Source: Armatimonadota bacterium
Lineage (GTDB): Bacteria; Armatimonadota; Chthonomonadetes; Chthonomonadales; Chthonomonadaceae
Reading direction: 5' to 3'
Assembly (NCBI GenBank): GCA_028871815.1
Contig: JAGWMJ010000002.1
Location: 186,001 to 250,000 of the forward strand
DNA length: 64,000 bases
The translations under genes were made by a program, and so were the position numbers. This document shows, in pieces, positions 2,132-25,125 of the stretch. The notes under the pieces were generated by a model that was not told the origin of the DNA, did not search any database, and saw only the letters and a program-made list of their open reading frames with translations. Within the stretch, counting starts at the first letter, position 1, and each line of letters opens with the position of its first letter.

Positions 2132-2233
2132 GCTCCTCCCGGGTGGCATCGTGAAGACCGGATCGGTCTTTGCCCTTGTTTGCGTCGCCTTGGGTTTGCC
2201 GCGGCCGCCCTGGCCGGGGGTGGAGGATTCACT

Positions 2234-7555: not shown

Positions 7556-10500
7556 TTGAACAGAGCCAGATATCGTTCGATCAACCGGGTTATACTTGCT
7601 GCCGGAGCCATGTTGATGGCCGCAGCAAGCGCGTCGTTTGCTCAAAACCGATCCAAAAACCCGCGAGGATCGCTGTCGAACTTCTTTGGAGCTCAAAGCG
7701 GAGCCAGCCGCGCCGTGTCACCACACGTGCTGTATGGGCGGCTTCAGCAGGTGCCGGCATGGATGACGCAGCGGAAACTGCCGGCCAGTGTGCTTGCAAA
7801 ACTGCGGTCCCGTGCGCCTGGCGACCAGGCGGTGATACGACAAACCATCCTGCTCACGTCCGCGCAGCCCGGCTCCGGAAACGACGTTATTTCACAAGCG
7901 CAGGAATCTCATCCATTCTGGACAGCGGATGAGAAGTTCATCTACTTCGATAGTGACCGGAACAGCGCGGCAGATGCAACTGAGAGCGCTTCGCATACCT
8001 ACCACATCTACTCAATCTATCCAGACGGCTCCGGCGCCACGCAGATTACCGCCGGCGCCAATAACGATATCGAGCCCGCCATCTCGCAGGATGGTGGCAC
8101 AATGGCCTACTGCACTGGCGGCAGCATGCAGTACCCAAACAGTCTCGACAATCTTCAGACGAGTGGCTTCCAGCTTGTTATAGTGCCTATAAGCCCCGGA
8201 CTCGGGACAAGCGGCCAGCCGTCCAGCCCTACGCTGACCAACCCGCAAGGCTTCAATTTTGCCGACGTAAGGCATCCCACCTGGTCACCGTCCGGCGCGC
8301 AGCTGGCCTTTAGCGGACGCCTGGTTACCGATAGCACCTACCACATCTTCGTGGTTGACGTTCAGACCAGCAACATCACCCAGGTTACCAAGGGCACGTC
8401 GACCGACTCCGCGCCTGCGTGGTCGCCTGATGGCAATCTGATAGCGTTTACCACCAATGCCGCCGCCTGGCCCAATACAGCGGCGCCGATTTCCGCGACG
8501 AGCCTTGCCACAACCACGGATATCTGGGTACTTAATCCGAACCGCTTCCGCCCCGACGTACGGCGCGTAACCGGCATAACGATCGGCGGCGTACCAACCA
8601 CCAACAAGAACGCTGCGTGGAGCACGCTCCGCCCAGACCCGCTCGGCGTGGTACCGGAGCAGCCCACCGGCACCGGCTCGTCAACCGCCGACGAACTGCT
8701 TGCGTTTGCCAGCAACCGCGCCGACACCGATCCCAACAACCCTGGTATCCCGAACGCTGTCAAGAACACCTTCGATATCTACTGGCTGCATGCCACCGTC
8801 CAGCCCGATATCGGCGTCCCGGGCGATTATACGGTCTCAACGCCCGAAGCGCCCGGTAATCCCGGGTTGAAGCTGCGGACCAGCACGCCGGACACGTCGA
8901 TCGATCCAACCGAACCCAGTCACGCGTTCGATCCCAACTTCACTTCCAACGAGGATTATCCGGTTTGGCCACAGTACATCGACTCGTACCGGATCGCGTT
9001 TCAGAGTGATCGTGGTGGCAACCTGAACCTGTGGGCCTCCACGATTTTTGATATCAACGCGCCAACGCTGTTGAACTACGATGCCAACAACATTGTTCGT
9101 ATCTCGGAGGATAACAACCCGCTCGTACCGATACGTGAGGCGCTGCCGGGAGACCGGCTGCGCATCGCAGCGCGTGTTGCGGATTATGAAACCGGCGTGG
9201 AATCGGTATGGGTGCAGATCAAGTGCCCGGATAGCGCAGAGCAGTCGGCAGACGGCCAGGAGCATAAGACCTATTTCGTTGGGCCAGGCCTGATAAACAC
9301 CGCCGTTTTTGCCGTCAACCCACCGTATGAATGGGACTCGCAGGCAATACAGCCCAGTTCATCACTCGGCGTGCCAGTGTTCCGAACGCCCGGCTTTATG
9401 CCGAAAACCGCGCAGGACCTTTTCGGAACCATCCCAGCCTCCTGGCCTGGATGGAACTGGTATATCCCCGGCGTCGACGATGAGAACGCGTTTTCGGGCT
9501 CGCTCAATCCGCCCGACTCCGACGCAAACGACCCGGAAGGTGGCTTCTGGCTGCAACTCTGGGATGACGGGCCTGTATCCAAGGGCGGTCACGAGCCCGA
9601 GGGTGAGATCGCCGGCGACGGACTCTACACGGCAGACTGGACGGCTCCAGTTTCGTTCGCCAGCGACTGGATCGTGGACATCATTGCCCGCGATCGCGCG
9701 GTGGATCCATTCGACACCGGCCTCCGGACCAACTGGAAAATCTACGATAACGTATGGGGCTTCTCGACGCGCCCATTCACCACGCAGGGTCGCGTCCTTT
9801 ACGTAAACGACTACGACGAGGGGCAGAAGTTCTTTCTCGGTCGTAACGGAAACGGTGGCACCAACTTCCCCGGCGCGTTTTCGATGTGGCCAACCGAGAG
9901 CTGGATGACCGAGCTCAGCACGCAGCTGCTGCCTACGCGCTACGTCACCACCACCTCAGGTGGTCCGCTGCTGAACGTGTTGAACCCGCTAGGCGTCGAC
10001 TCGTACGGCTCCGGCTTCGCGTATGATCCACTGACGGACGACGGCACCGGCATTCCCGTCACCGGTCGGTACGACCAGTGGCGCGTTCTGTGTCGCGGGC
10101 CGATTCCCTACAGCATCCTGCAAACCTACGGCGGTCATCAGCAGACCGATCCCAACGATGTACTCAACGGCAATGCGGCGGTGCAGGTAGATGTGGCTGA
10201 TCGGTGTGTCATCTGGCACTCGCCATATTCGGGCGACCTCTACGTTGGCCCCGGTACCATCCTGGACAACTCCACGCTCACCAACCTCCTTCAGTTTGTC
10301 AACAATGGAGGCCGGCTCTTCCTGGACGGCACCGACATCGGCTGGGCGATTACGAATAGCCAGAGTCAGAACGGTCTCGCATTGCTGGGCCTTGCCGGCA
10401 CGTCCTACGTCCAGGACGATCCGTTCCAGGGCACGATCGGCGAATATCAGATCAACCTGACTGCCGGCCACTTCACGCATCCGGTCTCAACCGAGTACTG

Positions 10501-13447
10501 GGCCGCGCCGGCCTACCACAACTATCCCGGCCCACCGCCGTTTCCACCAGACCACCCGCCGTCGGAAGGGCCCATCTTTGTGGCGCCCTCCACAGTTCCG
10601 GCAAATCGGGATTGGGGCTGCCTGGGCTCGGCAGCGGCATTTATGGATGTGATGGCGGCGCCCGCAGCAACCACCGACGCAACCTATATCGGTACCTACA
10701 ACGGGAATCCGGGAGTTGCAGTATCGTGGAACATACCATCCACGAATAGCCTTGGCGGGCGTGTCGTTTACAGCGGCTTCAACTGGGACGGTATCAACCC
10801 TGAGTTCTTTACCGTTACCGTGGGAACCGTAACCGAATACATTCTCAAGAACCGCCGCGCCGAGATGATCCACAACGTTCTGGACTTCCTCCGGACGGGC
10901 CGCATCTTCGGCACCGTGTTCGCCACACAGGGCAACGGCACCTCGGTACCGCTCTCCGGCGTGTTTGTAAGCGCCACCGGTATCAACATCGCCACCGGTA
11001 AAGCCATGACCATGGCGACCACCGTCAGTCAAACCGATGGCTCCTTCTCCCTCGATGGCCTGCCGGCCGAGGGCGCGGACATCTTCACACTGAACGTCGC
11101 CAAAACGGGATACCTCCAGAGCTCCCACGGCTCCGGCGCCGTTTTCCATGGCGGCTACCAGGGCCGCACCGACATCTTTATGACGGAAGCGCCTCCTGGC
11201 GGAATAAAGGGGCAGATTACCAACTACAGCAACGGCGTGCCGGTACCCGGCGCGGTCGTCATAGCAACCGACATCTCGTCACCCGGCGCCACTAACCCTG
11301 CCAGCTTCAGCGGCACCAGCGACTTCAATGGCATCTATACCATTGCATGTCCCACCAGCGTCTATTCCGTGGTGATCAGCAACCTTACTACGCTGGGTTA
11401 CGGTAGTTCGATTCCCGTCGGCTACGGCACCACGGATCCAACCTACAAAGCCGTGGTTGTCAATGGGCCAAACCTTACCACGGGAGTCAACTTCAGCGTT
11501 AAGCCGATACCTGGCTCGATCTCCGGTAAGGTCACGGACCAAAACACCGGTAAACCAATCCAGGCCGCTATCGTAACGGCCAGCTTTACGTCTGGTGGCA
11601 CAACAACGTCCACAACCGCCCTTACAGCCGCCGATGGCACGTACAGCATCGCCAACCTCAGCCCAGGATCCTACGGCGTCACGGCAAGCGGTCTCGGCTA
11701 CCAGACCAGCGGATCGCTTACCGTAACTGTGGCGAGCAAGGCGAACACGCCGAACGTCAACTTCGCTCTCGCCGAGCTGCCTCCGGGAGCAATCTCCGGG
11801 TTGGTCTCCACATCCGAGGGCATACCGATCTCGGGCGTCAGTATCACGCTCACGGATCCAGCCGGTAATCCGGTGAAGAGCCGGCAGGGCAATGTGCTTT
11901 CGGCAGTTACGGGCGCACCGCAAACCGTGGGAACCTACACCTTTAACTACAAGGTGCAGAATGTGCCCGCGGGCGGTCAGGTAACCGTTACCGCTGCCAA
12001 GCCCGGCTACAACCCGCCGGCGGGCACCACGCCCTCGCAAACCGTAACCGTGGTGACCGGTCAGGAACTGCAGGGCATCAACTTCACGCTGGATCCGCTG
12101 CACGTATTCACAGCGGGTGAAGCGCTGGTGTCATCGCCGTACCTGTACAACGTGCCGATAACAACGCTCCTCGGCGTACCGTCATCCGACGTCGCCTCCG
12201 GAGCGTTCCTCTTCGCCACATGGCCATTGAATTCGTATCTCTACTATCCGGTAGCACCTGCCGACACATTCCATCTCGGTGTCGGCTACTGGCTGGCGGA
12301 TACATCGGGACAGGCCTCGCTTGCGCTGACCACACCAGGCACGCCGGCGCCGCTGACCGGGCCATTCAACATCCAGCTGCATCCCGGATGGAACCTGATT
12401 GGCGATCCGTTCCCGTTCCCGATCGACTTCCTCGAGCTCAAGATCACACTGGCCAATGGCACGCAGGAAGATGTGATCAGTGCGATGAGCGGCAACACGC
12501 CCGCTCTCGGCTCCGCGCTGTGGACCTACGGTACCGGCGCCTACGAGGTTGCGTTCACGCTGGATCAATGGCGTGGCTACTGGCTGCAGGCATTCACGCC
12601 CTGTACCCTCGCAGTAGACCCGAACGCCATCCAGACCCGAGGGGCATCGATATCGCCGGCGAATGCAGAGTTAATCACCAGTGGCAATGCCAATGGTGAT
12701 GGCTGGCGCCTGTCGCTCAATGCCGTGGCTGGAACGGTTCACTCTGCTCCGGGGATTGTCGGCCAATCGCGCGCCGCAATCGATACTTACGACCGATTCA
12801 AGCTGCAGACGCCGCCGGGTATCGGCAAATCTCAAGTCGCCCTCACGTTTAACCACGCCGACTGGGGACGGATGGCGGGTCCATACAGCGTGGATGTGCG
12901 GTCGCAGTCGGAGACGGCGCAAAAGTGGAACTTTACAGTAAGTTCCAGTGCGCTCAATACGCCTGTGGTACTCACGTGGCCCGCCCTGGCAGCGGTACCG
13001 GCTCGCTACCACATCGCGCTGACCGATCTCGACAGTAACACGTCGTTCGATCTCAGAACGCACGGCGTCTATACGATCCCGGCATCCGCCAAGCCGCTGC
13101 TTCGCCACTTCCAGCTGGTGGTGACCCCTGCGGTGCGACAGTTCCTGGCCATTCAGGGCCTGGATGCACGCCTCAACACGACACGTGGCGTGGGCACCTC
13201 CGTAGCAATCGATTACGCGCTTACGGCCGACGCCACGGTTCAAATCCGCGTTCTCGCCAATGGCCGGTCACTTCGCACGGTACAAACCGGGCAGACGCGG
13301 GCCGCTGGGCAGTTGAACGCGATATGGGATCTCAAGACCGATGCCGGAGTAGCCGTGCCGGCCGGCACCTACATGGTCGAGGTCCAGGCGACCGACACAG
13401 GTGGACACGTAGTACGGAACATCATTCCAGTGGTAGTCTCACGCTAA
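7556..13447 (+). CDS. Giant exported protein: TolB-like propeller, GATase-like domain, four Ig-like repeats, shared C-terminal module
   Basis: 1963 residues, exported. The TTG start has GGAGGT ten bases upstream. A signal peptide is visible, with basic N-terminus, hydrophobic core and likely cleavage after ASASFA. Residues about 115-480 contain PD40/TolB-type propeller blades (HPFWTADEKFIYFDSDRN, APAWSPDGNLIAFTTN, YPVWPQ). Around 740-1110 is a region like the glutamine-amidotransferase/ThuA-like fold (FVNNGGRLFLDGTDIGW). Four CarboxypepD_reg-like domains begin near residues 1115, 1214, 1320 and 1411, each opening with a G-x-I/F-x-G strand. From about 1516 to the end is a module shared with two neighbours, containing GWNLIGDPF near residue 1611 and a FlgD-like Ig domain from about 1874. 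The function is unknown; binding or display at the cell surface is an inference. Confidence 0.85.
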   Translation: MNRARYRSINRVILAAGAMLMAAASASFAQNRSKNPRGSLSNFFGAQSGASRAVSPHVLYGRLQQVPAWMTQRKLPASVLAKLRSRAPGDQAVIRQTILLTSAQPGSGNDVISQAQESHPFWTADEKFIYFDSDRNSAADATESASHTYHIYSIYPDGSGATQITAGANNDIEPAISQDGGTMAYCTGGSMQYPNSLDNLQTSGFQLVIVPISPGLGTSGQPSSPTLTNPQGFNFADVRHPTWSPSGAQLAFSGRLVTDSTYHIFVVDVQTSNITQVTKGTSTDSAPAWSPDGNLIAFTTNAAAWPNTAAPISATSLATTTDIWVLNPNRFRPDVRRVTGITIGGVPTTNKNAAWSTLRPDPLGVVPEQPTGTGSSTADELLAFASNRADTDPNNPGIPNAVKNTFDIYWLHATVQPDIGVPGDYTVSTPEAPGNPGLKLRTSTPDTSIDPTEPSHAFDPNFTSNEDYPVWPQYIDSYRIAFQSDRGGNLNLWASTIFDINAPTLLNYDANNIVRISEDNNPLVPIREALPGDRLRIAARVADYETGVESVWVQIKCPDSAEQSADGQEHKTYFVGPGLINTAVFAVNPPYEWDSQAIQPSSSLGVPVFRTPGFMPKTAQDLFGTIPASWPGWNWYIPGVDDENAFSGSLNPPDSDANDPEGGFWLQLWDDGPVSKGGHEPEGEIAGDGLYTADWTAPVSFASDWIVDIIARDRAVDPFDTGLRTNWKIYDNVWGFSTRPFTTQGRVLYVNDYDEGQKFFLGRNGNGGTNFPGAFSMWPTESWMTELSTQLLPTRYVTTTSGGPLLNVLNPLGVDSYGSGFAYDPLTDDGTGIPVTGRYDQWRVLCRGPIPYSILQTYGGHQQTDPNDVLNGNAAVQVDVADRCVIWHSPYSGDLYVGPGTILDNSTLTNLLQFVNNGGRLFLDGTDIGWAITNSQSQNGLALLGLAGTSYVQDDPFQGTIGEYQINLTAGHFTHPVSTEYWAAPAYHNYPGPPPFPPDHPPSEGPIFVAPSTVPANRDWGCLGSAAAFMDVMAAPAATTDATYIGTYNGNPGVAVSWNIPSTNSLGGRVVYSGFNWDGINPEFFTVTVGTVTEYILKNRRAEMIHNVLDFLRTGRIFGTVFATQGNGTSVPLSGVFVSATGINIATGKAMTMATTVSQTDGSFSLDGLPAEGADIFTLNVAKTGYLQSSHGSGAVFHGGYQGRTDIFMTEAPPGGIKGQITNYSNGVPVPGAVVIATDISSPGATNPASFSGTSDFNGIYTIACPTSVYSVVISNLTTLGYGSSIPVGYGTTDPTYKAVVVNGPNLTTGVNFSVKPIPGSISGKVTDQNTGKPIQAAIVTASFTSGGTTTSTTALTAADGTYSIANLSPGSYGVTASGLGYQTSGSLTVTVASKANTPNVNFALAELPPGAISGLVSTSEGIPISGVSITLTDPAGNPVKSRQGNVLSAVTGAPQTVGTYTFNYKVQNVPAGGQVTVTAAKPGYNPPAGTTPSQTVTVVTGQELQGINFTLDPLHVFTAGEALVSSPYLYNVPITTLLGVPSSDVASGAFLFATWPLNSYLYYPVAPADTFHLGVGYWLADTSGQASLALTTPGTPAPLTGPFNIQLHPGWNLIGDPFPFPIDFLELKITLANGTQEDVISAMSGNTPALGSALWTYGTGAYEVAFTLDQWRGYWLQAFTPCTLAVDPNAIQTRGASISPANAELITSGNANGDGWRLSLNAVAGTVHSAPGIVGQSRAAIDTYDRFKLQTPPGIGKSQVALTFNHADWGRMAGPYSVDVRSQSETAQKWNFTVSSSALNTPVVLTWPALAAVPARYHIALTDLDSNTSFDLRTHGVYTIPASAKPLLRHFQLVVTPAVRQFLAIQGLDARLNTTRGVGTSVAIDYALTADATVQIRVLANGRSLRTVQTGQTRAAGQLNAIWDLKTDAGVAVPAGTYMVEVQATDTGGHVVRNIIPVVVSR

Positions 13448-13524
13448 TGGAACCAACAACAAACTTGCGCCCGGGGACCCGCCCCCTGCATCCGGCGCGG
13501 GACTTTCAGGGAGGAGTCGATAGA

Positions 13525-15849
13525 GTGAAAGCTTACTGCAGGCCTGCGGCAGCTCGCGCGGCCGTCAAGTTCGCCACTACGGCACTGGTTCTGCCTCTTC
13601 TGCTGCTCACCTTGCCTCTGCAGCGCGCGCACGCGCAGCAGGTGCTCCGGGTGGTGCTCGCAGAGTTTACAGACAAGGCGACCGGCACATCGGACGCGCT
13701 GGCGCGCACCGCCACGGATGCCGTTTACAATGAGCTGGTAAACACGGGGCAGGGCAAGTTTGACGTCTTGCCGTCTACTGAAGTCACTACGCAGGCCAAG
13801 AGCCTGGGTATCCGTGTGCCGAGCCTGCCAGGTGAAGCGCCGTCGTTCAGTGACTTTGATCTGACGCGGCTGGCGCGCGCACTCAACGCCGACGGCATAA
13901 TCCAGGGAGTTGTGGAAGGCGCGCCGCCGATGAAGGGCCGGCCCGCGACGGTGGTCATGAGCCTTACGGTGAAGGACACGACAACCGGCAAGCTCATCAA
14001 TGGTGGCATCGGTCAGGCGACAGCCGTGCCGGCGCCGGGCGAAGTAGGGGACCCACAGGACCTGGTCACGACGGCGGCGGAGCATGCCGCTATGGATGCC
14101 GTGCGGCAGATTGTCGAGCGCCAGTTGGTCACGGCCACGGTGCTGAACATCAACGGCAACACGGTCATCCTCAATCGCGGTCTTCGCGACGGTCTGCACG
14201 TGGGTGACGATGTGATGATCCTCCGCGACGGCGCAAACGGTGCGCAGACGCAGGAGGGCCTCGTTCGCATTGCTCGTGTCTACGCAACGGACAGCGAAGC
14301 CGACGTCATTCAGAACGTTGGCGGCATTCGTCCAGAGGACCTGGGCCGCGTTCTCTATCGCCCCAACTACGTAATAGCGGCGACACCCGGCCTGATCAAG
14401 GCCGAGCGCGTGACGCGGCCGAACTTCTCCGCGATCGGTTCGACGCTTGCTGCAATCGGACTCGGCGTTCTTCTCGCCGGAGCCAACAAAGGCGGCCAGC
14501 AGTCAGTGACGAACGTGACGGCGCAACCGTTTGCCTCAAGCGGTTCGTCTGCGGTCCAGATCAACTGGAGTGACAACATCTTTGGCCAGGCCGGTGTCCA
14601 GCAGTACCACATCTGGCGCTTGCCGGACTATCCATTCGATAACAACCTCGGTGTAACAACGGGTGGAACCGGTGGTACGGGCGGCACCGGCGGTACCGGT
14701 ACCACCACATTTATCGGGCGTATTCCGATTGGAACCACATCCGGTAACACGCATGTCTTTGTCGACAGGCCCAGCCCATACGCGTTCTATCAGAACGGTG
14801 GCACAATCACCGTTGGAGTGGGCAACGGCAGCAACGGCACCGGCAGCGGAACGAGTGGCACAGGCAGCACCACGGCAACCTGCGGCCTGATCTCGGTCAC
14901 CGGCAGCTTTCCAACTGGATTCACGCCAGGCAACACCTACCAGTATCAGGTCTCTGCCGTTATACTAAGGCAGGTGCCGGTCGTCTCGAGCAGTTCCAGT
15001 GGTGGTGGCACCGGCGGAACCGGTGGACTTGGCACCGGCGGCACGGGTGGCACCGGTGGTGTCGGGGGTACGGGAGGCACTGGCGGTACCGGCGGCACAG
15101 GCGGCACAGGCGGCACTGGTGGCACTGGTGGTACCGGCGGCACGGGTGGCAATGGCAACGGCGGCAATGGCAACGGCGGTTCCTACATCTGTATCGAAAC
15201 CGACCCGGTCACGAGCCAAAACGCCACTCCGGTCAACCCGGTTCTGCTGCTTACGCCGACTGCATCGGCGCAATCGGTGAATATCACCCAGTTTGCGCCA
15301 ACATGGACGAGCCGCAACGGCGCCGACGTCTTCCAGCTCGAGATCTCCACCGACCGGTCGTTCTCCAACCCGAAGACGATCTTCCTGGTGACACCGATCT
15401 TTTCCAGCGCCCCGAACGCCGATGGCGTCTCCGAGACTGTTAGTGCTCCAATCGACCTGCGCGGTGTACCACAGCTACTCGCGGATCAGTCGTTTGCGAA
15501 CTTCGTCAATGGTGCCGCGGGCGCTGCAGCGCCACCGATCTATTGGCGTGTCGGGGCGCGGCACGATGCCGATGTGCCCGGCCCGCTAAGCTGGTTTGGT
15601 GGCTCGTCCGGTCCCATCGCCGATCAGTTCCGATGGGTCTACAGCTCCATCCAGTCGTTCACTCCTGCGCCGGCGCCGCCGCCCCCACCTGGCAAAGCCG
15701 CAGCTATTCTGAACAAGCTGAACAGTGGCCGTGCGGCAAACTGGGTGCTGCCCCTGCCGGGCGACACTTCGCTTGGCCACGCCGTGGCTGCAAAGCGCGT
15801 ACCGACCATCCAGCAGATCCTCACGGGCGCTGGGAGGCCGCATCACTAG
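13525..15849 (+). CDS. Exported CsgG/FlgT-like protein with Gly-Thr-rich repeats
   Basis: 774 residues from the GTG at 13525, chosen because GGGAGGAG lies eight bases upstream and a clean signal peptide follows (cleavage probably after RAHA). An in-frame ATG at 13447 overlaps the previous stop. Residues about 27-210 resemble the CsgG/LpoB-type fold (VLRVVLAEFTDKATG near the start, ADGIIQGVVEG later). Next is a FlgT-C-like segment (NGNTVILNRGLRDGLHVGDDV), then a hydrophobic stretch (IGSTLAAIGLGVLLAGA), a fibronectin-like region ending in HIWRLPDYPF, two GGTGGTGG tracts, and a C-terminal domain that may bind partners (FQLEISTDRSF). CsgG-like proteins act at the outer membrane in export or envelope assembly. 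That role here is inferred from fold resemblance only. Confidence 0.75.
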   Translation: MKAYCRPAAARAAVKFATTALVLPLLLLTLPLQRAHAQQVLRVVLAEFTDKATGTSDALARTATDAVYNELVNTGQGKFDVLPSTEVTTQAKSLGIRVPSLPGEAPSFSDFDLTRLARALNADGIIQGVVEGAPPMKGRPATVVMSLTVKDTTTGKLINGGIGQATAVPAPGEVGDPQDLVTTAAEHAAMDAVRQIVERQLVTATVLNINGNTVILNRGLRDGLHVGDDVMILRDGANGAQTQEGLVRIARVYATDSEADVIQNVGGIRPEDLGRVLYRPNYVIAATPGLIKAERVTRPNFSAIGSTLAAIGLGVLLAGANKGGQQSVTNVTAQPFASSGSSAVQINWSDNIFGQAGVQQYHIWRLPDYPFDNNLGVTTGGTGGTGGTGGTGTTTFIGRIPIGTTSGNTHVFVDRPSPYAFYQNGGTITVGVGNGSNGTGSGTSGTGSTTATCGLISVTGSFPTGFTPGNTYQYQVSAVILRQVPVVSSSSSGGGTGGTGGLGTGGTGGTGGVGGTGGTGGTGGTGGTGGTGGTGGTGGTGGNGNGGNGNGGSYICIETDPVTSQNATPVNPVLLLTPTASAQSVNITQFAPTWTSRNGADVFQLEISTDRSFSNPKTIFLVTPIFSSAPNADGVSETVSAPIDLRGVPQLLADQSFANFVNGAAGAAAPPIYWRVGARHDADVPGPLSWFGGSSGPIADQFRWVYSSIQSFTPAPAPPPPPGKAAAILNKLNSGRAANWVLPLPGDTSLGHAVAAKRVPTIQQILTGAGRPHH
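15001..15180 (+). repeat. Coding tandem repeat, Gly-Gly-Thr units of about 9 bp
   Basis: About 20 imperfect copies of a GGY-ACY-GGY-type 9-base unit encode consecutive Gly-Gly-Thr triplets, degrading into Gly-Asn-Gly at the 3' end. A shorter tract of the same kind is at about 14661-14703, and a related one lies in the exoprotein gene at about 19735-19780. Copy number could change by slippage without breaking the frame. Confidence 0.9.
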
Positions 15850-15896
15850 AAGCCGGAGCGCGGCGATGGCCGCGGAGCCGGATGGGCTAACCGGAC

Positions 15897-15929
15897 TGTG
15901 CGCAGCCACCAATACTGTGGCTGCGCACA
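15897..15929 (+). other. Perfect 13-bp hairpin between exoprotein genes
   Basis: TGTGCGCAGCCAC (15897-15909), seven-base loop, GTGGCTGCGCACA (15917-15929). There is no T-run, so it is more likely a processing or stability element, or a weak terminator, than a classic intrinsic terminator. It lies 45 bases before the subtilase start. Confidence 0.8.
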
Positions 15930-15974
15930 CCGGCGAAAGAAGTCGGTTCTATGTTTAAAGGAGCAGTGTCAATT

Positions 15975-18900
15975 ATGAAGCGCGCTCAGCAATCTGCTCG
16001 CTGGGCGTGGGCGCCACTCGCGGCAGCCGTTTTCGGACTGTCGATTATGGCCGCCTACAGCCAAACGCAACCCAACACAGTCCCGGGCGAAATCATCCTA
16101 TACATGCAGCCGGGTACGCCGCAGGACACCGTGAACACGGTGGCGGCGAGCGTGTCGCCGCTCTCGGTTACACCACTCCTGATGAAGGACTGCTACGTCA
16201 TCTGGCTCCCAACAAACCGTCAGACACCCGCGGAGACGTCGTCGGCTGTGGCCACTCTCAAACAGTTCCCCAGCGTTCGCTACGCCGACATTTCGCATCT
16301 CTATACACTTTACGGTCAAAGCTCGGGTGATATTCCGAACGACCCCGATTACGCGCCCGATCAGTGGGATATGCCTCTGATCAACATGCCGCAAGCATGG
16401 GCGCTTGAAAAGGGAGCTCCGAATGTGAACGTTGGCTGGATCGACTCCGGCTACGACTTGACACATGTGGACACAAAGGGACAGTTCCTCCCCGACAGCT
16501 ACGACACCGCGGATAACAGCACCAACATCAATGCGGATGCCGGCGCCGATCACGGCGTCTCCACGAGCGGTATTGCGATCGCGCTGACCAACAACGGTAT
16601 CGGCGCCGCCGGCATCGACTGGGAGAACATCAAGTGCCTCGGCATCAAGGCGCACAAAATTGGCGCACCGGCTGAATCGGTAGATACGCCCGGCATCCTG
16701 TCCGGTTATGCTTACATCCTGTCGCGCGTACAGCAGGACCACATCGTCGCTGTCAATATGAGTTATGGCTACTCTGGCGGCGACCCGAGCAATACGAACG
16801 ACCCGCAGTATCAGGGGATTCTCGCGCTGGTAAACGCAGGCGTTGCAATGATCGCGGCCGCAGGAAACGACGGTATTGAAGATAGCGGAACGAACCTTCC
16901 TGCCGCTTATCCGTTTGTCGTAAGCGTTTCCGCTATAGGACCAACAAAGGCGCTCGCCTACTACTCATCGTACGGCAAGGTGGAACTTGCAGCCCCCGGC
17001 GGGTCTCAGATTACAGGTCCTAATGATCCCAATGGCTGCTTCGTTCTCAAACAGGGCAGCCTGTATGCGTTTGAGCAAGGCACCTCCTTCGCCGCGCCGC
17101 ACGTAACTGCTGTGACCGCTCTGCTGATGTCAATTCCCGGTGTCACGGCGGCCAAGGCGATCAAGGTGATGGAGGAGACGGCGAATTCAACCGGACTGGG
17201 CACGCTGCCCGATGCGCACTTTGGCTATGGCATCCTGGACGCTTATGCGGCGCTAAACAAAGTTGCCGTTCAGGCATCCATCGTCAACCCGCAGGGCGTT
17301 GATCCCGCGACCGGTCTCCCCACCGATCTGAGCAACACGGCACCGCCTGTTGCTACGTTCAAGCCGAGACTCACCTTCTCGCTCGTGAATGTAGCACCGG
17401 CCAACGTCACCATCACCATCGATGGTACTCCGGCGCCTGCCTCCGATATCCAGAATGCGACGTTCGTCGGCGACTCCACCTCGGCAAACCCAAACTACAC
17501 GATGCAGATCCGGCATCAGTTTCCTCTGTCGGCGCCATTTCAGCACACGATTACGGTGACCGGCGTTGGCGTGGGTGGCGGAGCAACCGTGACAGCATCT
17601 CGCATCATCACGCTGACCCCGCACGTGTTCCTGCCCGGAACTTCACTCGTCTCCATACCCTACTTCGAGTCGGCAGCCGATTCGCCGACCGGGGCGTTCC
17701 GGCAGCCGAAACAGCTGCTCGGCTCAAGTTCCGGACTTGCCCGGTGGGTAACACTACCCACCAGTACAGGCAATGCCGGCCAGTACGCCACGTATGGACC
17801 CGGCGCCTCTGGTGAGAACCCGGCATATTCATCCTTCACTCCGCCAGACGTCACAACCACGATCGACCAGGCGGAAGCGCTCGGCCTTCCCACGGACGTT
17901 CGCCCGTTGGGATTGGGCTACTTCCTTCAGTCTCCGGCAAGCATCGAGGTCGATACAAACGGCAAAACGTACGATAACCGACCGATCGTCATACCGCTCC
18001 ATGAGGGCTGGAACCTGATCGGCGATCCGTTCAACTACGTGGTGCCGTTCAACGCACTGCAGGTGCAGATGGCCGACGGCAGCCGGGTGTCCATTGGCTC
18101 GGCGGCCGATCAGGGCAGTATCCTGCCCGACATCTATACACTGTCCAATGGCAGCTATACGTTTGCCACGCTGCCCGGCGGTTCACTGCTCCCATGGCAA
18201 GGACACTGGGTCTACGTCTATCCGAAGAACCCGGCCTCGCCAAGCCTTGCGCCGACGATCAGCCTCGTGGTACCGCCCACGGCGCAGGCCGGCAGCGGCA
18301 CCGGCAACGCGGTGGTACTGCATCCGCAGACTGCGGGACAAACGCTCGGAGCGCCTGTGTCAACAGGCTGGAAGCTCCAACTTGACGCCACCTCCGGTAC
18401 GCTCCACGATGCAAACAACTTCATCGGGATGTCTGGACAGGCGACCGTCGGACGTGACATCACCAAGGTGCCCAAGCCGCCGATGCTGTCACCAAACGTA
18501 ACACTGGGAGTATTGCGGCCGAACGACGGCTCGGCGCTCTATGCGCAGGATCTCGAGCCATTCGGCGCCGCTCACACCTGGAACGTCATCGTCAGCTCTA
18601 CGCAAAAGAACGCAACGGTAACGGTAACCTGGCCCAACATCCAGTCGGTGCCCCGGTCGTACTCGCTCCTTCTCACCGATAAAACCAGCGGTGATCAGGT
18701 GCAGATGCGCCATGCGGGTTCCTATCAGTTCAACACCGGCCCGCAGGCGGCCAGCCGAACGTTTACCATCACTGCCGCGCCGGTAGCTCCCGGCGCTCCA
18801 ATGGCGATAACGTCGGTGTTCGTCGATCCCGCCCGCATGGTCAATGGCCGCTCGGTCGGTCTCTATGACATCAGGTATAATCTCACCCGGGCGGCCCAGG

Positions 18901-19112
18901 TGAGCGTGACCGTAATGGCGAACGGCCGCACCGTTGCCCAGGTGGCTCCGGGGCGGGCCGTTCTTGCAGGCAGTAACGACACAACGTGGAACGGCCGGGA
19001 TAGTGCAGGTCGCACCCTGCCTGCCGGTCTCTACATGGTCCAGATCAGCGCCGTCACCAGTGACGGTCAGGTCGCCCGCACCGTTGCGCCCATGGTAATC
19101 ACCGGTCGGTGA
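15975..19112 (+). CDS. Exported subtilisin-like serine protease (S8) with shared C-terminal module
   Basis: 1045 residues from the ATG at 15975, preceded by AAAGGAG (11-base gap). An ATG 24 bases earlier is open, but the Shine-Dalgarno lies inside that extension. There is a signal peptide, then a short propeptide-like region. The catalytic triad is visible: Asp in WIDSGYD (about residue 157), His in DHGVSTSG (about 193) and Ser in GTSFAAPH (about 371). The oxyanion Asn is probably in VNMSYG or AAAGND. The His motif departs from the usual GHGTHVAG: the second conserved His is replaced. The protease domain ends near 430, followed by an Ig-like linker. From about residue 549 to the end is the module also found in two neighbours (GWNLIGDPFNYVVPF; FlgD-like end). 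A probable role is processing surface proteins or degrading external protein. Confidence 0.9.
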   Translation: MKRAQQSARWAWAPLAAAVFGLSIMAAYSQTQPNTVPGEIILYMQPGTPQDTVNTVAASVSPLSVTPLLMKDCYVIWLPTNRQTPAETSSAVATLKQFPSVRYADISHLYTLYGQSSGDIPNDPDYAPDQWDMPLINMPQAWALEKGAPNVNVGWIDSGYDLTHVDTKGQFLPDSYDTADNSTNINADAGADHGVSTSGIAIALTNNGIGAAGIDWENIKCLGIKAHKIGAPAESVDTPGILSGYAYILSRVQQDHIVAVNMSYGYSGGDPSNTNDPQYQGILALVNAGVAMIAAAGNDGIEDSGTNLPAAYPFVVSVSAIGPTKALAYYSSYGKVELAAPGGSQITGPNDPNGCFVLKQGSLYAFEQGTSFAAPHVTAVTALLMSIPGVTAAKAIKVMEETANSTGLGTLPDAHFGYGILDAYAALNKVAVQASIVNPQGVDPATGLPTDLSNTAPPVATFKPRLTFSLVNVAPANVTITIDGTPAPASDIQNATFVGDSTSANPNYTMQIRHQFPLSAPFQHTITVTGVGVGGGATVTASRIITLTPHVFLPGTSLVSIPYFESAADSPTGAFRQPKQLLGSSSGLARWVTLPTSTGNAGQYATYGPGASGENPAYSSFTPPDVTTTIDQAEALGLPTDVRPLGLGYFLQSPASIEVDTNGKTYDNRPIVIPLHEGWNLIGDPFNYVVPFNALQVQMADGSRVSIGSAADQGSILPDIYTLSNGSYTFATLPGGSLLPWQGHWVYVYPKNPASPSLAPTISLVVPPTAQAGSGTGNAVVLHPQTAGQTLGAPVSTGWKLQLDATSGTLHDANNFIGMSGQATVGRDITKVPKPPMLSPNVTLGVLRPNDGSALYAQDLEPFGAAHTWNVIVSSTQKNATVTVTWPNIQSVPRSYSLLLTDKTSGDQVQMRHAGSYQFNTGPQAASRTFTITAAPVAPGAPMAITSVFVDPARMVNGRSVGLYDIRYNLTRAAQVSVTVMANGRTVAQVAPGRAVLAGSNDTTWNGRDSAGRTLPAGLYMVQISAVTSDGQVARTVAPMVITGR

Positions 19113-19130
19113 GCGTAGCCGAACTACCGG

Positions 19131-19169
19131 CAGCCTGCAGATGGAGCGGTTTGCGCCATCTGCAGGCTG
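19131..19169 (+). other. Perfect 14-bp hairpin between exoprotein genes
   Basis: CAGCCTGCAGATGG (19131-19144), 11-base loop, CCATCTGCAGGCTG (19156-19169), 19 bases after the subtilase stop. Only two T residues follow the stem, so a Rho-independent terminator is not clear. The sequence is unrelated to the other hairpins in this block. Confidence 0.8.
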
Positions 19170-19305
19170 TTGAATACGTCGACAAGGCAATAAGCGCGAT
19201 ATTAGTAGAGAATCCGCAACCCAGCGGCCAAACGAAACTGCGATGTGCGGCGAATCCCCCGGCCGCGCAGTGCATTGGATGCAATTCGAGAGGGAGGCGT
19301 TCCTG

Positions 19306-22300
19306 ATGGAGCGATTTCAACGGATATTCGGAAACCGCATGACTCTTGCAGCAGCCGTGTTGGCTGTTGCAGCGCTGATCGGAATTTGCCCGGTCGCCGG
19401 AGCTCAAAGCGGCGGGGGCGGAGGCGGCGGCGGCGGAACTGTAACGGTGCCCTCAGCAGTGCTGACGAACGGCAACGTCACGCTGACGCTGAATGGTGAT
19501 GGCTCATTCGGCCTGACGACCACCGCATCGAATAGCAGCGACCCGAGCAATACGCTGATGGTTGCTGAAGGCGCCACACTTACCGGCAGTCTGTTCCATA
19601 TCGGCGGCTCGTTTCTCTATCTGCGCATAGATGGCGGCCTGGACAACTTTTTTGCCACCAACAACTCCGGCTGGGACGATGTGTTTGGTAGCGGCTCCGC
19701 CTTTGCCGGCACTACCGGCAGTGGTGGTGGCGGCGGAACCGGAGCCGGCGGAACCGGTGGAACCGGCGGCACAGGCACCACAACCCTGGCGGGTGCCTGG
19801 ATCGAACCGCCGAGCGTTATCGGTAACCATATCGAAGCCGTTTACGGCACCAATCCCCAGCTTTTCACGACTACCAAGAACGGTACCACCACGTATACCG
19901 TGGGCTACCTGCTGCAAGTAAGTTTTATCGGCAATATCATCCACGACACCGCGCGCTTTCAATTCACCGTCAAGAATCTTGATCCCGGCAATGCGCATCA
20001 GGTAGCCATGGATTTTGTTCAGGACGTGCATGTTCTGCCGTCCCCGACCACTGTCACGAACGCCAGCGCGCCGGACGGCCCACTGATCGTACCGGGGCAG
20101 CCATACCTGCATCACGAAACGGAGTTCTACGCGTCGCAGATTCCTCAGTACTGGCAGGCGTTTCACCTGATAACACCGGCAACCTCGACCACGCCCGAGA
20201 CGCTGCACTCCCTGATGGGGACCCTTCGTCCGACGAACTCGTTCGAAACGGATCCGACCCCTCCAACCCGGTTCGCCTATGGCCGGAGTGACCGCCTGAA
20301 CGGCGAGGACCTCGCCTGCCTCAGTTCGTTCACCGGCCTGGCTGGACCATTCGACTGCATCTGGAACTTCACGCCGGATCCCAGCATTGTGTTGGATCAG
20401 ACCTCGGCGAGCCCGCTTGGTCCAACCGACGCATCCGTGGCGCTCTACTGGGACCCCAGCGCAATAGCTCCGGGGGGCACCCAAACGTACGTAACCTATA
20501 TGGGTCAGGCCGATGCCACGAGTGATTTCGGACAGCCGATGTCGCTCAGCGTAAGTGGCCCGATCGCTCTTAGCCTCGTTAACAACGTCAGCAATCCGTC
20601 GCTGGGCCCGCAAGTGACGCCCAATCCGTTTCTGGTCACGGCATACGTGCAGAACCTTACCGACCTTCTTAACAGCACCGGTGTGGACGAAGGTCCTGTG
20701 AATGTGTTCATCAATCCCGGTCCCGGCCTGCAGTTGGCCAACGGTGATCAGGCGAGCCAGACCATATCCTCTCTCGGACCCGGTACGGAGGGCGTTGTGA
20801 GTTGGCATCTCCAGCCAACAGGCGCGCAAGGCGGCAGCCTCACCTATTCGGTTACCGCGACGCCAAGCCTCGGCAACGGAAAGATCGTGCAGCGATCCGT
20901 ACTGGTGCCTTCACCGCAGCAGTTCACTCTGGTAGGCAACAGCCTTGCCAAGGGCCTGTTCCAGATGGTCTCGATTCCTGAGGCCACGGGAACCACGCTG
21001 CCATCAACCATCCTGTTTCCAGGGATAGCCGCCAATCCGCCGCTGTTCGACCTGGTTCGCTTCGATACACCTTCCGGCAACTACCTGCCGGTCAACAGTT
21101 TCGTGCCCGGTCAGGCGTACTGGATTCGCAGTCGACTGCCGCAGAACCATACGGTAACCATCAACGTGGCGCAGTATCCGCCACTACCTGGTCAAACGCA
21201 GCCGAATAACCAGACGTACAAGATGCAGTATGGTCAGGGCTGGAATCAGATCGGGAACCCCTATGTGTACCCGATACGTTTTTCCGAGATCCAGGTCTTC
21301 GATCCGTCCACGGTGACGCTGGTAAACATGGCGGAGGCTGCAGACAGCATCCATCAGTGGGTCGTGCCGGTTGTCTACCCGTACAATACATCGGATCCCA
21401 ATCCGGCCAACTGGCACTATGACCTGGTCGATAACTTTGGCTTCGACATGCAGCCGTTCACGGGCTACTGGCTTTACGTCAACAAGCCCGGCCTCGACTT
21501 CATCTACAACGGTGTGGATACACCTGGAGCCGGCATTATCACGCAGGCCGCCCTGCTGGGCTCCAGCCTCGGCGCCACTCTCGGACGCGACAAGATGACC
21601 AACTGGAGGCAGCAACTGTCTGCCCGTGGCGCCGACTCCAGTGACACCGTGAACTATATCGGCGTGGCGCCAAACGCCACGGACCGAGCCGACATCTACA
21701 AGTATCCGAAGCCGCCCGTCCTGGCGCAGCACGTTGCTCTGGATATCGTGCACAACAGTTGGGGCGCAGCGGGACAGAGATTTGCGCAGGACTTGCGATC
21801 ACCAATGCTCACCAAGAAGGTATGGAACCTCATGGTGCACAGCAGCGGTCCTACGCAGCCCGTCACAATCTCATGGCCCGGTATCGCGTCATCCGTTCCG
21901 CGCGGATGGTCGCTCGAGCTAGTGGATACAACCACCGGCGCTCAGCGCAACATGCGCAGCAGCTCCAGCTATACCGTAACGACCAACCAGAACGGAATGC
22001 AGCCGCTCGAGATTGTCGCCACACCTACAACGGCGAATGGCGCCGTTTCGATTACGTCGTTCGACGTTACCAGCGGGCCACGCTCCGGCCGCGCGGCCCT
22101 GGCCGGCTCGGTGCAGATCCACTACGCGATGACGCGGGCGACACAGGCGCAGATCACCATCAAGTCCAGCGCTGGCCGCACCATTCGCACCCTGGAAGCT
22201 ACCACACGGGCGGTTGCTGCCGGTGGGGTTGCCACTGGCGATGCCGTCTGGGATCTGCGGGATAATCGTGGCGTATCGGTGCCACCGGGCCTCTATAACG

Positions 22301-22371
22301 TAGAGCTGCAGGCGCTGGCCTCCGATGGGTCGCTCACTCGCCAGATTCGGCCATATCTGGTAGTTCGTTAA
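19306..22371 (+). CDS. Exported Gly-rich protein with shared C-terminal module
   Basis: 1021 residues from the ATG at 19306, which has GGGAGG eight bases upstream; an ATG 63 bases earlier lacks a site and would bury the signal peptide. The signal peptide ends near CPVAGA and is followed by a run of glycines. Residues about 45-500 form a beta-rich domain with no family I recognise, interrupted by a GGTGAGGTGGTGG tract. It contains conserved-looking segments such as FQFTVKNLDPGNAHQVAMD, which suggests a galactose-mutarotase or lectin-like sandwich, but I cannot assign it. From about residue 538 comes the module shared with the 1963-residue protein and the subtilase (GWNQIGNPYVYPIRF; FlgD-like closing domain GLYNVELQALASDG). 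Probably extracellular or surface-bound. Confidence 0.85.
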   Translation: MERFQRIFGNRMTLAAAVLAVAALIGICPVAGAQSGGGGGGGGGTVTVPSAVLTNGNVTLTLNGDGSFGLTTTASNSSDPSNTLMVAEGATLTGSLFHIGGSFLYLRIDGGLDNFFATNNSGWDDVFGSGSAFAGTTGSGGGGGTGAGGTGGTGGTGTTTLAGAWIEPPSVIGNHIEAVYGTNPQLFTTTKNGTTTYTVGYLLQVSFIGNIIHDTARFQFTVKNLDPGNAHQVAMDFVQDVHVLPSPTTVTNASAPDGPLIVPGQPYLHHETEFYASQIPQYWQAFHLITPATSTTPETLHSLMGTLRPTNSFETDPTPPTRFAYGRSDRLNGEDLACLSSFTGLAGPFDCIWNFTPDPSIVLDQTSASPLGPTDASVALYWDPSAIAPGGTQTYVTYMGQADATSDFGQPMSLSVSGPIALSLVNNVSNPSLGPQVTPNPFLVTAYVQNLTDLLNSTGVDEGPVNVFINPGPGLQLANGDQASQTISSLGPGTEGVVSWHLQPTGAQGGSLTYSVTATPSLGNGKIVQRSVLVPSPQQFTLVGNSLAKGLFQMVSIPEATGTTLPSTILFPGIAANPPLFDLVRFDTPSGNYLPVNSFVPGQAYWIRSRLPQNHTVTINVAQYPPLPGQTQPNNQTYKMQYGQGWNQIGNPYVYPIRFSEIQVFDPSTVTLVNMAEAADSIHQWVVPVVYPYNTSDPNPANWHYDLVDNFGFDMQPFTGYWLYVNKPGLDFIYNGVDTPGAGIITQAALLGSSLGATLGRDKMTNWRQQLSARGADSSDTVNYIGVAPNATDRADIYKYPKPPVLAQHVALDIVHNSWGAAGQRFAQDLRSPMLTKKVWNLMVHSSGPTQPVTISWPGIASSVPRGWSLELVDTTTGAQRNMRSSSSYTVTTNQNGMQPLEIVATPTTANGAVSITSFDVTSGPRSGRAALAGSVQIHYAMTRATQAQITIKSSAGRTIRTLEATTRAVAAGGVATGDAVWDLRDNRGVSVPPGLYNVELQALASDGSLTRQIRPYLVVR

Positions 22372-23073: not shown

Positions 23074-23117
23074 TCGCAGCCGGCGTCGCGTGCGCACGCC
23101 AATATCGAACTCGTGAC

Positions 23118-23144
23118 GGACGCGACCCTCCAGCGGGTCGGTCC
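23118..23144 (+). other. Hairpin just upstream of the barrel gene
   Basis: GGACGCGACCC (23118-23128), six-base loop, GGGTCGGTCC (23135-23144), with one bulged G in the left arm. It ends 13 bases before the ATG at 23158, so it could affect translation initiation. No Shine-Dalgarno is visible between the stem and the ATG. Confidence 0.65.
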
Positions 23145-23157
23145 GCGCATCAACCCT

Positions 23158-25125
23158 ATGAAAATCGTAACGGCGGCTGCACTGTTTGTGTTGATCGGGC
23201 TATTCGCCGCACACAGCGCCGTGGCAGCGCCGGGAGCTCCTAACGGCATCACGCTGCGCGCGACGCGAACCGCGCTGCTGGCCGACGGTAAGTCGTTCAC
23301 CGACATCATTGCGCAGGTTTACGATAGCTCCGGTTCACCGGCGAACTACGTCAACGTACAGTTTCAGACCACCAGCGGCACCCTCTCGGAGCCGGTGGTG
23401 CAGACTTTCGCCGGTGTTGCGCGAGTTCGCCTTACCAGCTCCCCGGTCGCGGGCGTAGCGCACGTGACCGCATTTACGGCGGGCGCGGCAAGCGCGACAC
23501 TCGACGTGGTTTTCACAAACGATCCTGAAGCCACATTCGCTGGCAATACCTATATATCGGTCTCTGCCAAAGGCTACCTGGCATATAGCGCCACGGATCG
23601 CGCCATTGAAGCCCTGGGAGCGCCGGCTAAAGCCAGGTTAACCTATCGGAATCTGGATCTCACCGCAGATCGTATTCAGTTGCGATGTGATGACCTGATC
23701 GTTCGCGCACAGGATAACGTCACGCTGAAGCGCGCGGGCAAGGCGGTCAAACTTACGCGCCTGTACTACAGCATCCCTCAAGGGCTCGGGTATGGTATCG
23801 CTGTGCTCGGCGGGCGGCTCCAGCCAGTGCAAATCGCGGGCCAGCCGCCGGTGCTTTCTCCCAGCCCTACGCCGATTCCCAGCACATATCTGAACCTGCC
23901 GCAGTTGCAGGTGAAGCTGGTTGTGGTGGCGCGCGGCATCACATTCTTCCCGGGCGACCGGCTGCAGTTTCAACGGCCGCAGTTCTACCAGGACCAGGTC
24001 CGGATACTCAGCCTGCCGTACTACGAGTTGGCGCTCAACTCGCGCCAGCTGTTCTCCGATCAGTTCGTGAGTGTTGGCACCAATGGCTTCGGCCTCGAAT
24101 TACCGCTCTACTACAACCTCACGCCAACCTCCAACGGCATCCTGTATATCCGACACCAGCAGCAATTGGGTCGTAGCTACTACGCCACTCAGCCGGGCTG
24201 GGCCCTTGACCTCATTCAGGGATACTCATCGCGTGGCGGTCAACAGTATCAGGGCTCGGTGGGCTTTACAGGTTTGACCCGTGGCGACTGGGGATTTCAG
24301 TGGAACCACAATCAAGAGTTCAACGCCGCCACGCAGGGGTCGCTCGATCTGGAATTCCCCAACCATAACAGCATGTTCTTTTCGAGCAGCCTTACGCAGG
24401 ATTTTCACCAGCTGCGCTGGGGGCTCAATTTCGGTTCCGGCACCACGTTTATCGCGCCGACGGAGGCAACATACCGGACCGATATGTTCGCGGAAACACA
24501 GCCGAAGCCTCTGGCAGGCTCACGATCGCTGCTCTACACGCTGGGCACCACGTTTTCCGATGGCCACGTGCTGGCCGGAACCGGCGTGCAGTCGTTTGGT
24601 GAGACGTCGGAAGGCGTGAACCTGCGCGTCTTTTCACATCCGCTTTTGCTCGGCTCGCGTACCTCCCTCAACGACTCGTTCTCAGTGGGTCAGTCATTCG
24701 GCAGCGGCGGCACGTCCGGCTTTACCGGCCTTGCCACGCTGGGCCTCGATCAAACGTTCAAGGGCGGCGGCACCATGACGCTCACCTACGACTTTGTGAC
24801 GCAGCCATCCGGATTGTTCAATACCGATGGGCATCACCGGGTTGGGGCAACCTACAACTTTGCCACAGGCAAGCGGGTACAGGCGCTGCTGGTTGCCAGC
24901 ACCTATCTGGATGCCGCCGATTCCAGCGTGCTCGGCGACTTCATCTACCGGATCGATCCAAATTACCGGCTGCTCTTCTCCGCTACGATGCAGCGTTTTG
25001 AGGGTGAGACGTACAACGATGTTGAGTTCACATTCGGGCGCCGGATTGGCGCGCGGGAGCTTGAACTCACCTACTCAACGTTCCTGAAGCGGGTTTCCGT
25101 AAACTTTACAGCCACCAGCTTCTAG
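23158..25125 (+). CDS. LptD/OstA-like outer-membrane beta-barrel with N-terminal Big_1-like Ig domain
   Basis: 655 residues from the ATG at 23158, which gives a normal signal peptide (cleavage near HSAVAA); a GTG 45 bases earlier is open. Residues about 28-120 look like a bacterial Ig-like (Big_1/invasin) domain: [25 protein letters not shown], with the alternation typical of that fold. Residues 125-210 resemble an OstA/LptA-type segment ([20 protein letters not shown]). From about 260 onward the sequence alternates in the manner of an LptD C-terminal barrel, beginning with [12 protein letters not shown], and the final residue is Phe, as in BAM-inserted barrels. The true LptD is usually paired with LptA/B/C genes, which are not here. 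The protein may be an LptD paralogue serving the upstream exoproteins. The last codon overlaps the leuD stop on the other strand. Confidence 0.75.

Follow-up and report, generated by a model that had tools for sequence, protein, structure and literature searches.

A conserved three-domain C-terminal tail on predicted exported proteins of Armatimonadota, related to the tails of type IX secretion cargo

The locus

Proteins ending in a common C-terminal tail are encoded in the genome of an Armatimonadota bacterium (Chthonomonadaceae; GenBank assembly GCA_028871815.1). The window analysed here is the stretch of 64,000 nucleotides at positions 186,001 to 250,000 of contig JAGWMJ010000002.1, and window positions are used throughout; all features of the gene block lie on the forward strand.

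Protein A (7556..13447; 1963 aa) has a Sec signal peptide, a PD40/TolB-like propeller and four CarboxypepD_reg repeats, followed by the tail, whose first domain (D1) lies at 12101..12628 (GWNLIGDPF at 12386, WRGYW at 12569), its second (D2) at 12701..13129 (WPALAAVPA at 12977) and its third (D3), FlgD-like Ig, at 13142..13444, where VVVSR precedes the stop. That stop is overlapped (TAATG) by the start of a gene for an ~800-aa protein (13447..15849) with a signal peptide, no lipobox, and LpoB/CsgG-like, TsaP/FlgT_C-like and FN3 regions. Protein B (15951..19112) is a subtilase (S8) with the D/H/S motifs DSG, DHGVSTSG and GTSFAAPH; its tail consists of D1 (17616..18287), D2 (18366..18782; WPNIQSVPR at 18630) and the FlgD-like Ig D3 (18801..19109; ending in VITGR). 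Protein C (19306..22371; 1021 aa) has a head without any Pfam match and a tail made of D1 (20917..21519; GWNQIGNPY at 21238), D2 (21601..22026; WPGIASSVPR at 21874) and the FlgD-like Ig D3 (22045..22368; ending in LVVR). Downstream are P226 (22393..23073), a small LpoB-like partner whose orthologues match the profile of the ~800-aa protein, and an LptD-like outer-membrane barrel (23113..25125) with an N-terminal Big_1/invasin Ig domain, an LptA/LptD region and Phe as its last residue. A fused SecDF protein is encoded upstream of the block (2180-4771).

The block order (S1 protein, CoaE, A, ~800-aa protein, B, C, P226, LptD-like barrel) is kept, with gaps, throughout the phylum, including Fimbriimonadia and Zipacnadia, and partly in lineages whose tails consist of D1 only.

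Profile searches matched the LptD-like barrel to LptD (7omm; E 4e-4) and LptA (E 0.035); a Pfam search at E 0.01 gave it no LptD family. No other gene of the genome has such a match. The host genome also encodes LpxC and LptF/G, and the barrel is therefore probably a lipopolysaccharide (LPS)-assembly protein. All 13 aligned relatives of the barrel carry the N-terminal intimin/invasin-type Ig domain (Big_1/Invasin_D3), which is unusual for LptD; to our knowledge, canonical LptD has no such domain. The Ig domain is common to the intimin-invasin family, but the barrel itself is not of the intimin type.

Homology and domain plan of the tails

A sequence-only reading of this DNA had proposed that three exoproteins with unrelated upstream domains share a C-terminal module of about 450 to 500 residues. 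The last 448 to 498 residues of A, B and C are indeed homologous, with ~30% identity by BLASTP (A-B, 31% over 420 aa, E 2e-40; A-C, 29% over 431 aa, E 6e-36; B-C, 30% over 500 aa, E 1e-46), and their heads do not match one another by BLASTP at E ≤10. Shuffle z-scores were 56 to 65 for whole tails and 35 to 46 after removal of the Ig domain (C-terminal 110 residues), and the shared tail is real and far above chance. Its starts, at residue 1516 of A (nt 12101), 549 of B (nt 17616) and 538 of C (nt 20917), agree with those read by eye, and every motif named in that reading is present, in the order given there, in all three tails. The genome has a fourth copy, on a different contig (G000:C14:3771-4964).

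An AlphaFold model of tail B, built on an alignment of 89 relatives, is a single confident structure of three domains (pLDDT 89.6, pTM 0.86). D1 (tail residues 1 to about 222) bears the GWNLIG(D/N)P and W-x-G-(Y/H)-W motifs, is internally duplicated (half versus half, hhalign E 3e-11, probability 97) and was again confident when modelled by itself (pLDDT 89.8); its fold matched nothing in the PDB below E 0.06, and a sequence search of the PDB likewise gave no match. D2 (about residues 250-390) contains the WP..VPR motif. Pfam searches of the 89 tails returned no family for D1 or D2, with FlgD_ig the sole general hit; D1 and D2 are thus newly defined domains without a Pfam family, D1 also without a PDB fold match.

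D3 (residues 395-498) is the FlgD-like Ig domain already recognised from the sequence. FlgD_ig (PF13860) matched 87/89 tails and is confirmed in those of A, B and C (C at 0.4 bits below the Pfam cut-off), and the tail profile matched FlgD structures (E 4e-11). Flagellar FlgD was rejected as the identity of these proteins, with which it has only the Ig domain in common: D3 sits on exported proteins, the terminal Arg is specific to the tail, and the genome has no separate FlgD_ig gene above the cut-off, its sole matches above that cut-off being the four tails. The resemblance to the C-terminal domains (CTDs) of type IX secretion system (T9SS) cargo, also raised in the sequence-only reading, appeared in profile matches to the PorU CTD (E 0.003) and PorZ (E 0.03), and 44/89 tail members matched NCBI's PorU model; Foldseek of the whole tail gave generic Ig/Fn3 matches alone, with low TM-scores and PorU at rank 49. 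An invariant Gly in D3 (tail residue 437) resembles the conserved loop Gly of T9SS CTDs, but an equivalent Gly is frequent in FlgD Ig domains as well, so it says little for a T9SS-type signal.

In a search over journal papers, with the subscription literature partly covered, no earlier account of the tail emerged from work on FlgD_ig tails or on T9SS in Armatimonadota.

Distribution, C-terminal end and descent

The tail was found in 60/61 Armatimonadota genomes, at 1 to 15 copies per genome, with G051 the sole genome without a match in the profile search; many of the genomes surveyed are metagenome-assembled, and both E-values and absences depend on the profiles. Its nearest named relatives are in Chthonomonadales and other Armatimonadota, and matches beyond the phylum fall in candidate division KSB1, Latescibacterota, Krumholzibacteriota, Calditrichota, Marinimicrobia and Bacteroidota.

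All 167 distinct Armatimonadota open reading frames (ORFs) that reach D3 stop within 6 residues of the profile end, 143 of them exactly there, and 163/167 end in Arg. Among tails <60% identical, terminal Arg occurs in 102/107, versus 47/278 control ORFs from the same loci (some of these controls are spurious ORFs), and it ranks 16th in conservation among the 498 columns, whose mean identity is 25%. The conservation of the terminus could instead be due to folding or to common descent.

Mapped on a tree of 89 tails, the head label changes 2 times for A, 2 for B, 1 for D and 7 for C, versus means of 17.4, 15.0, 3.9 and 20.5, respectively, for shuffled labels. Because tail labels track the head family, the three tails in the window are ancient paralogues that have been passed down together with their heads from an early point in the history of the phylum. 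The tree thus rejects, for the main families, the mobile module that the sequence-only reading had envisaged, leaving the protease slot of the block as the exception. Heads (n = 221) fell into 15 clusters, the largest three being C, B and A. A fourth tail-bearing family is represented in this genome by a 1158-aa protein whose head has no Pfam match (L115 3771-7244, G000:C14), and its tails form a separate clade that is kept in relatives.

In the protease slot the catalytic head is mostly S8, C11 in G044 and G057 and M6-like in G053, and the tail is kept; one non-S8 tail (L119) nests among the B tails (support 96). It looks as if the catalytic head may have been exchanged over a retained tail. 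Examples of the slot are at 15951-19112 in the window, L122 10283-13366 and L134 2306-5677.

Most block proteins of three lineages (G035, G049 and G055) end after D1, with neither D3 nor the terminal Arg, even on orthologues of the block genes. Of 30 ORFs with D1 and without D3, 25 stop ≤18 residues past the end of D1, and most lack the terminal Arg. D3 is therefore not a universal signal, and these lineages are the main evidence against D3 as the single signal; D1 at the C-terminus is the more constant element, with D3 and the Arg found in the rest of the phylum. In the D1-only lineages (loci L170, L173 and L179) copies are also far more numerous than elsewhere, reaching 23 matches per genome; they sit on Fn3/Ig, GHL10 and other heads, frequently one after another in tandem, so that D1 by itself has an expanded use.

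Relation to type IX secretion

T9SS CTDs depend for export both on their C-terminal end, whose last strand holds a conserved Lys, and on a loop that contains a conserved Gly (PMC11285876). The Armatimonadota tail has the corresponding C-terminal Ig-like beta-sandwich in the model and a basic end. Outside Armatimonadota, D1-D2 is followed by a type A sorting domain of canonical form (YPNPFNP...), with TIGR04183 matched in 18/19, and D2+D3 aligned with T9SS cargo tails at hhalign probability 100 (E 1e-49). Cargo tails of this type (KSB1, Latescibacterota, Calditrichota, Marinimicrobia and Bacteroidota) thus have D1 and D2 in the same order, followed by a C-terminal Ig-like domain, the same extreme C-terminal place and a basic last residue, but the Armatimonadota D3 is FlgD_ig-like and ends in Arg, without the YPNPFNP start or the R-K-M-x-L end. 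TIGR04183 weakly matched 16/89 tail relatives; proteins A, B and C matched neither TIGR04183 nor PF18962 at E ≤0.1, and PF18962 is absent from this genome.

Tail-bearing genomes from other phyla, which served as positive controls, have SprA in 12/12 cases; the count is 0/20 in Armatimonadota, then 0/151 across 100 genera of the phylum. PorV was found in 0/19 Armatimonadota versus 10/11 tail-bearing genomes of other phyla, a weaker absence than that of SprA because PF19572 missed PorV even in a Bacteroidota control (G069). C25 peptidases (PorU) are absent from this genome and occur in a few other Armatimonadota, versus 11/11 genomes of other phyla. Gingipain-like C25 enzymes were rejected as tail carriers, the two that were inspected (G018 and G031) being without the tail. 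With SprA in none of the 151 Armatimonadota genomes and PorV and PorU not found here, the tail system is not a T9SS; Armatimonadota possess a cargo-type tail without one.

Possible functions of the tail

The reading that we favour, at a little under even confidence, is that the tail serves Armatimonadota as an ancient C-terminal module for sorting or anchoring in the envelope, one that has a common origin with the D1-D2-CTD tails of T9SS cargo and works without a T9SS. A small fixed set of apparently Sec-exported proteins (the PD40/CarboxypepD protein, the protease, protein C and the fourth family) would carry it. To judge from their signal peptides, Sec would bring these proteins to the periplasm, where the folded tail, with the last strand of D3 and the terminal Arg exposed, may be recognised by an envelope partner that directs the protein to the outer membrane or retains it there, probably at the cell surface. 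Candidate partners, picked by their place in the conserved gene block alone, are the LpoB/CsgG-like protein, P226 and the LptD-like barrel.

This proposed sorting or anchoring role draws on the fixed C-terminal stop, the Arg end, the presence of the tail in nearly all genomes, the conserved block, the tail kept across protease classes, the D1-D2 pair before type A CTDs in SprA-bearing genomes of other phyla, the alignment of D2+D3 with those tails, and the dependence of T9SS CTDs on their C-terminal end. Set against it are the D1-only lineages, the probable LPS role of the LptD-like barrel, and G051; the last keeps both the LptD-like and LpoB-like genes without a tail match, so these genes are not dedicated to the tail. 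G051 and the LPS genes likewise weaken the barrel as a dedicated tail translocon. The earlier suggestion that the module is shared for sorting, anchoring or stability stays plausible.

More tentatively still, Armatimonadota might possess a hitherto undescribed route for outer-membrane export or anchoring, one that recognises a folded C-terminal module whose last Arg is near-invariant, an SprA-free counterpart of the T9SS; such a putative route would have the cargo tail in common with type IX secretion, but not the translocon. For a phylum whose protein-export biology is almost unknown, the tail singles out a conserved group of candidate surface proteins. The occurrence of this cargo tail both with SprA and without it makes it possible to ask directly what role a CTD-type tail has independently of T9SS, and whether the T9SS took over an envelope tail that already existed or Armatimonadota retained or gained the tail with another machine reading it.

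Alternatively, the tail may be a rigid stalk or contact surface that assembles A, B and C with one another or with an envelope partner and has no sorting role, which we consider possible but doubtful. FlgD Ig domains take part in assembling a structure, which would fit such a role, as would the adjacency of A, B and C in the conserved block, the confidently modelled rigid fold and the persistence of D1-only versions on the same orthologues; by itself, though, assembly leaves unexplained the extreme C-terminal place, the terminal Arg and the occurrence of D1-D2 before sorting domains elsewhere.

It is unlikely that D1, with its conserved Trp and Tyr residues, binds a surface glycan such as LPS and so keeps exported proteins on the cell, with D2-D3 as support: the D1 fold has no carbohydrate-binding-module match (best E 0.065, probability 0.06). 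D1 is, on the other hand, the constant part of the tail, terminal even where D2-D3 is missing, and the block holds the only LptD-like gene of a genome that makes lipid A, though that neighbour may be chance operon content.

A functional amyloid is less likely still. In 2016, a six-gene Armatimonadetes block encoding a CsgG-like protein, a subtilase and a protein with four PF13620 domains was proposed as a functional amyloid cluster (PMC4737851), in which the CsgG-like channel would secrete the CarboxypepD_reg protein as amyloid. Judged by its gene description, that block is the one in the window, and matches to CsgG in 4/29 relatives and to LpoB in 4/29 confirm the CsgG superfamily for the N-terminal domain of the ~800-aa protein. 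The window protein itself, however, has no CsgG (PF03783) match in Pfam, 28/29 orthologues lack a lipobox, and the nearest solved relatives are LpoB and TsaP, not CsgG; CsgG proper is thus unsupported and an amyloid channel a weak candidate. The shared tails do not figure in the text of that paper and are left unaddressed by its proposal.

A divergent true T9SS, to which the PorU/PorZ-like D3 and the basic C-terminus would point, is largely refuted and barely credible, given the SprA and PorV counts above, the lack of C25 peptidases and PF18962 in this genome, and the lack of a YPNP motif. Weak matches of ~95 residues to SprA 593-690 occur in 16/20 Armatimonadota, one of them in a 1081-aa probable outer-membrane protein of this genome (L129 3141-6386, G000:C7). 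They were rejected as a translocon because the stretch in that protein, the one example inspected here, is short and because SprA-bearing genomes with the tail have similar extra matches besides SprA. The L129 protein could be a further candidate partner at the outer membrane.
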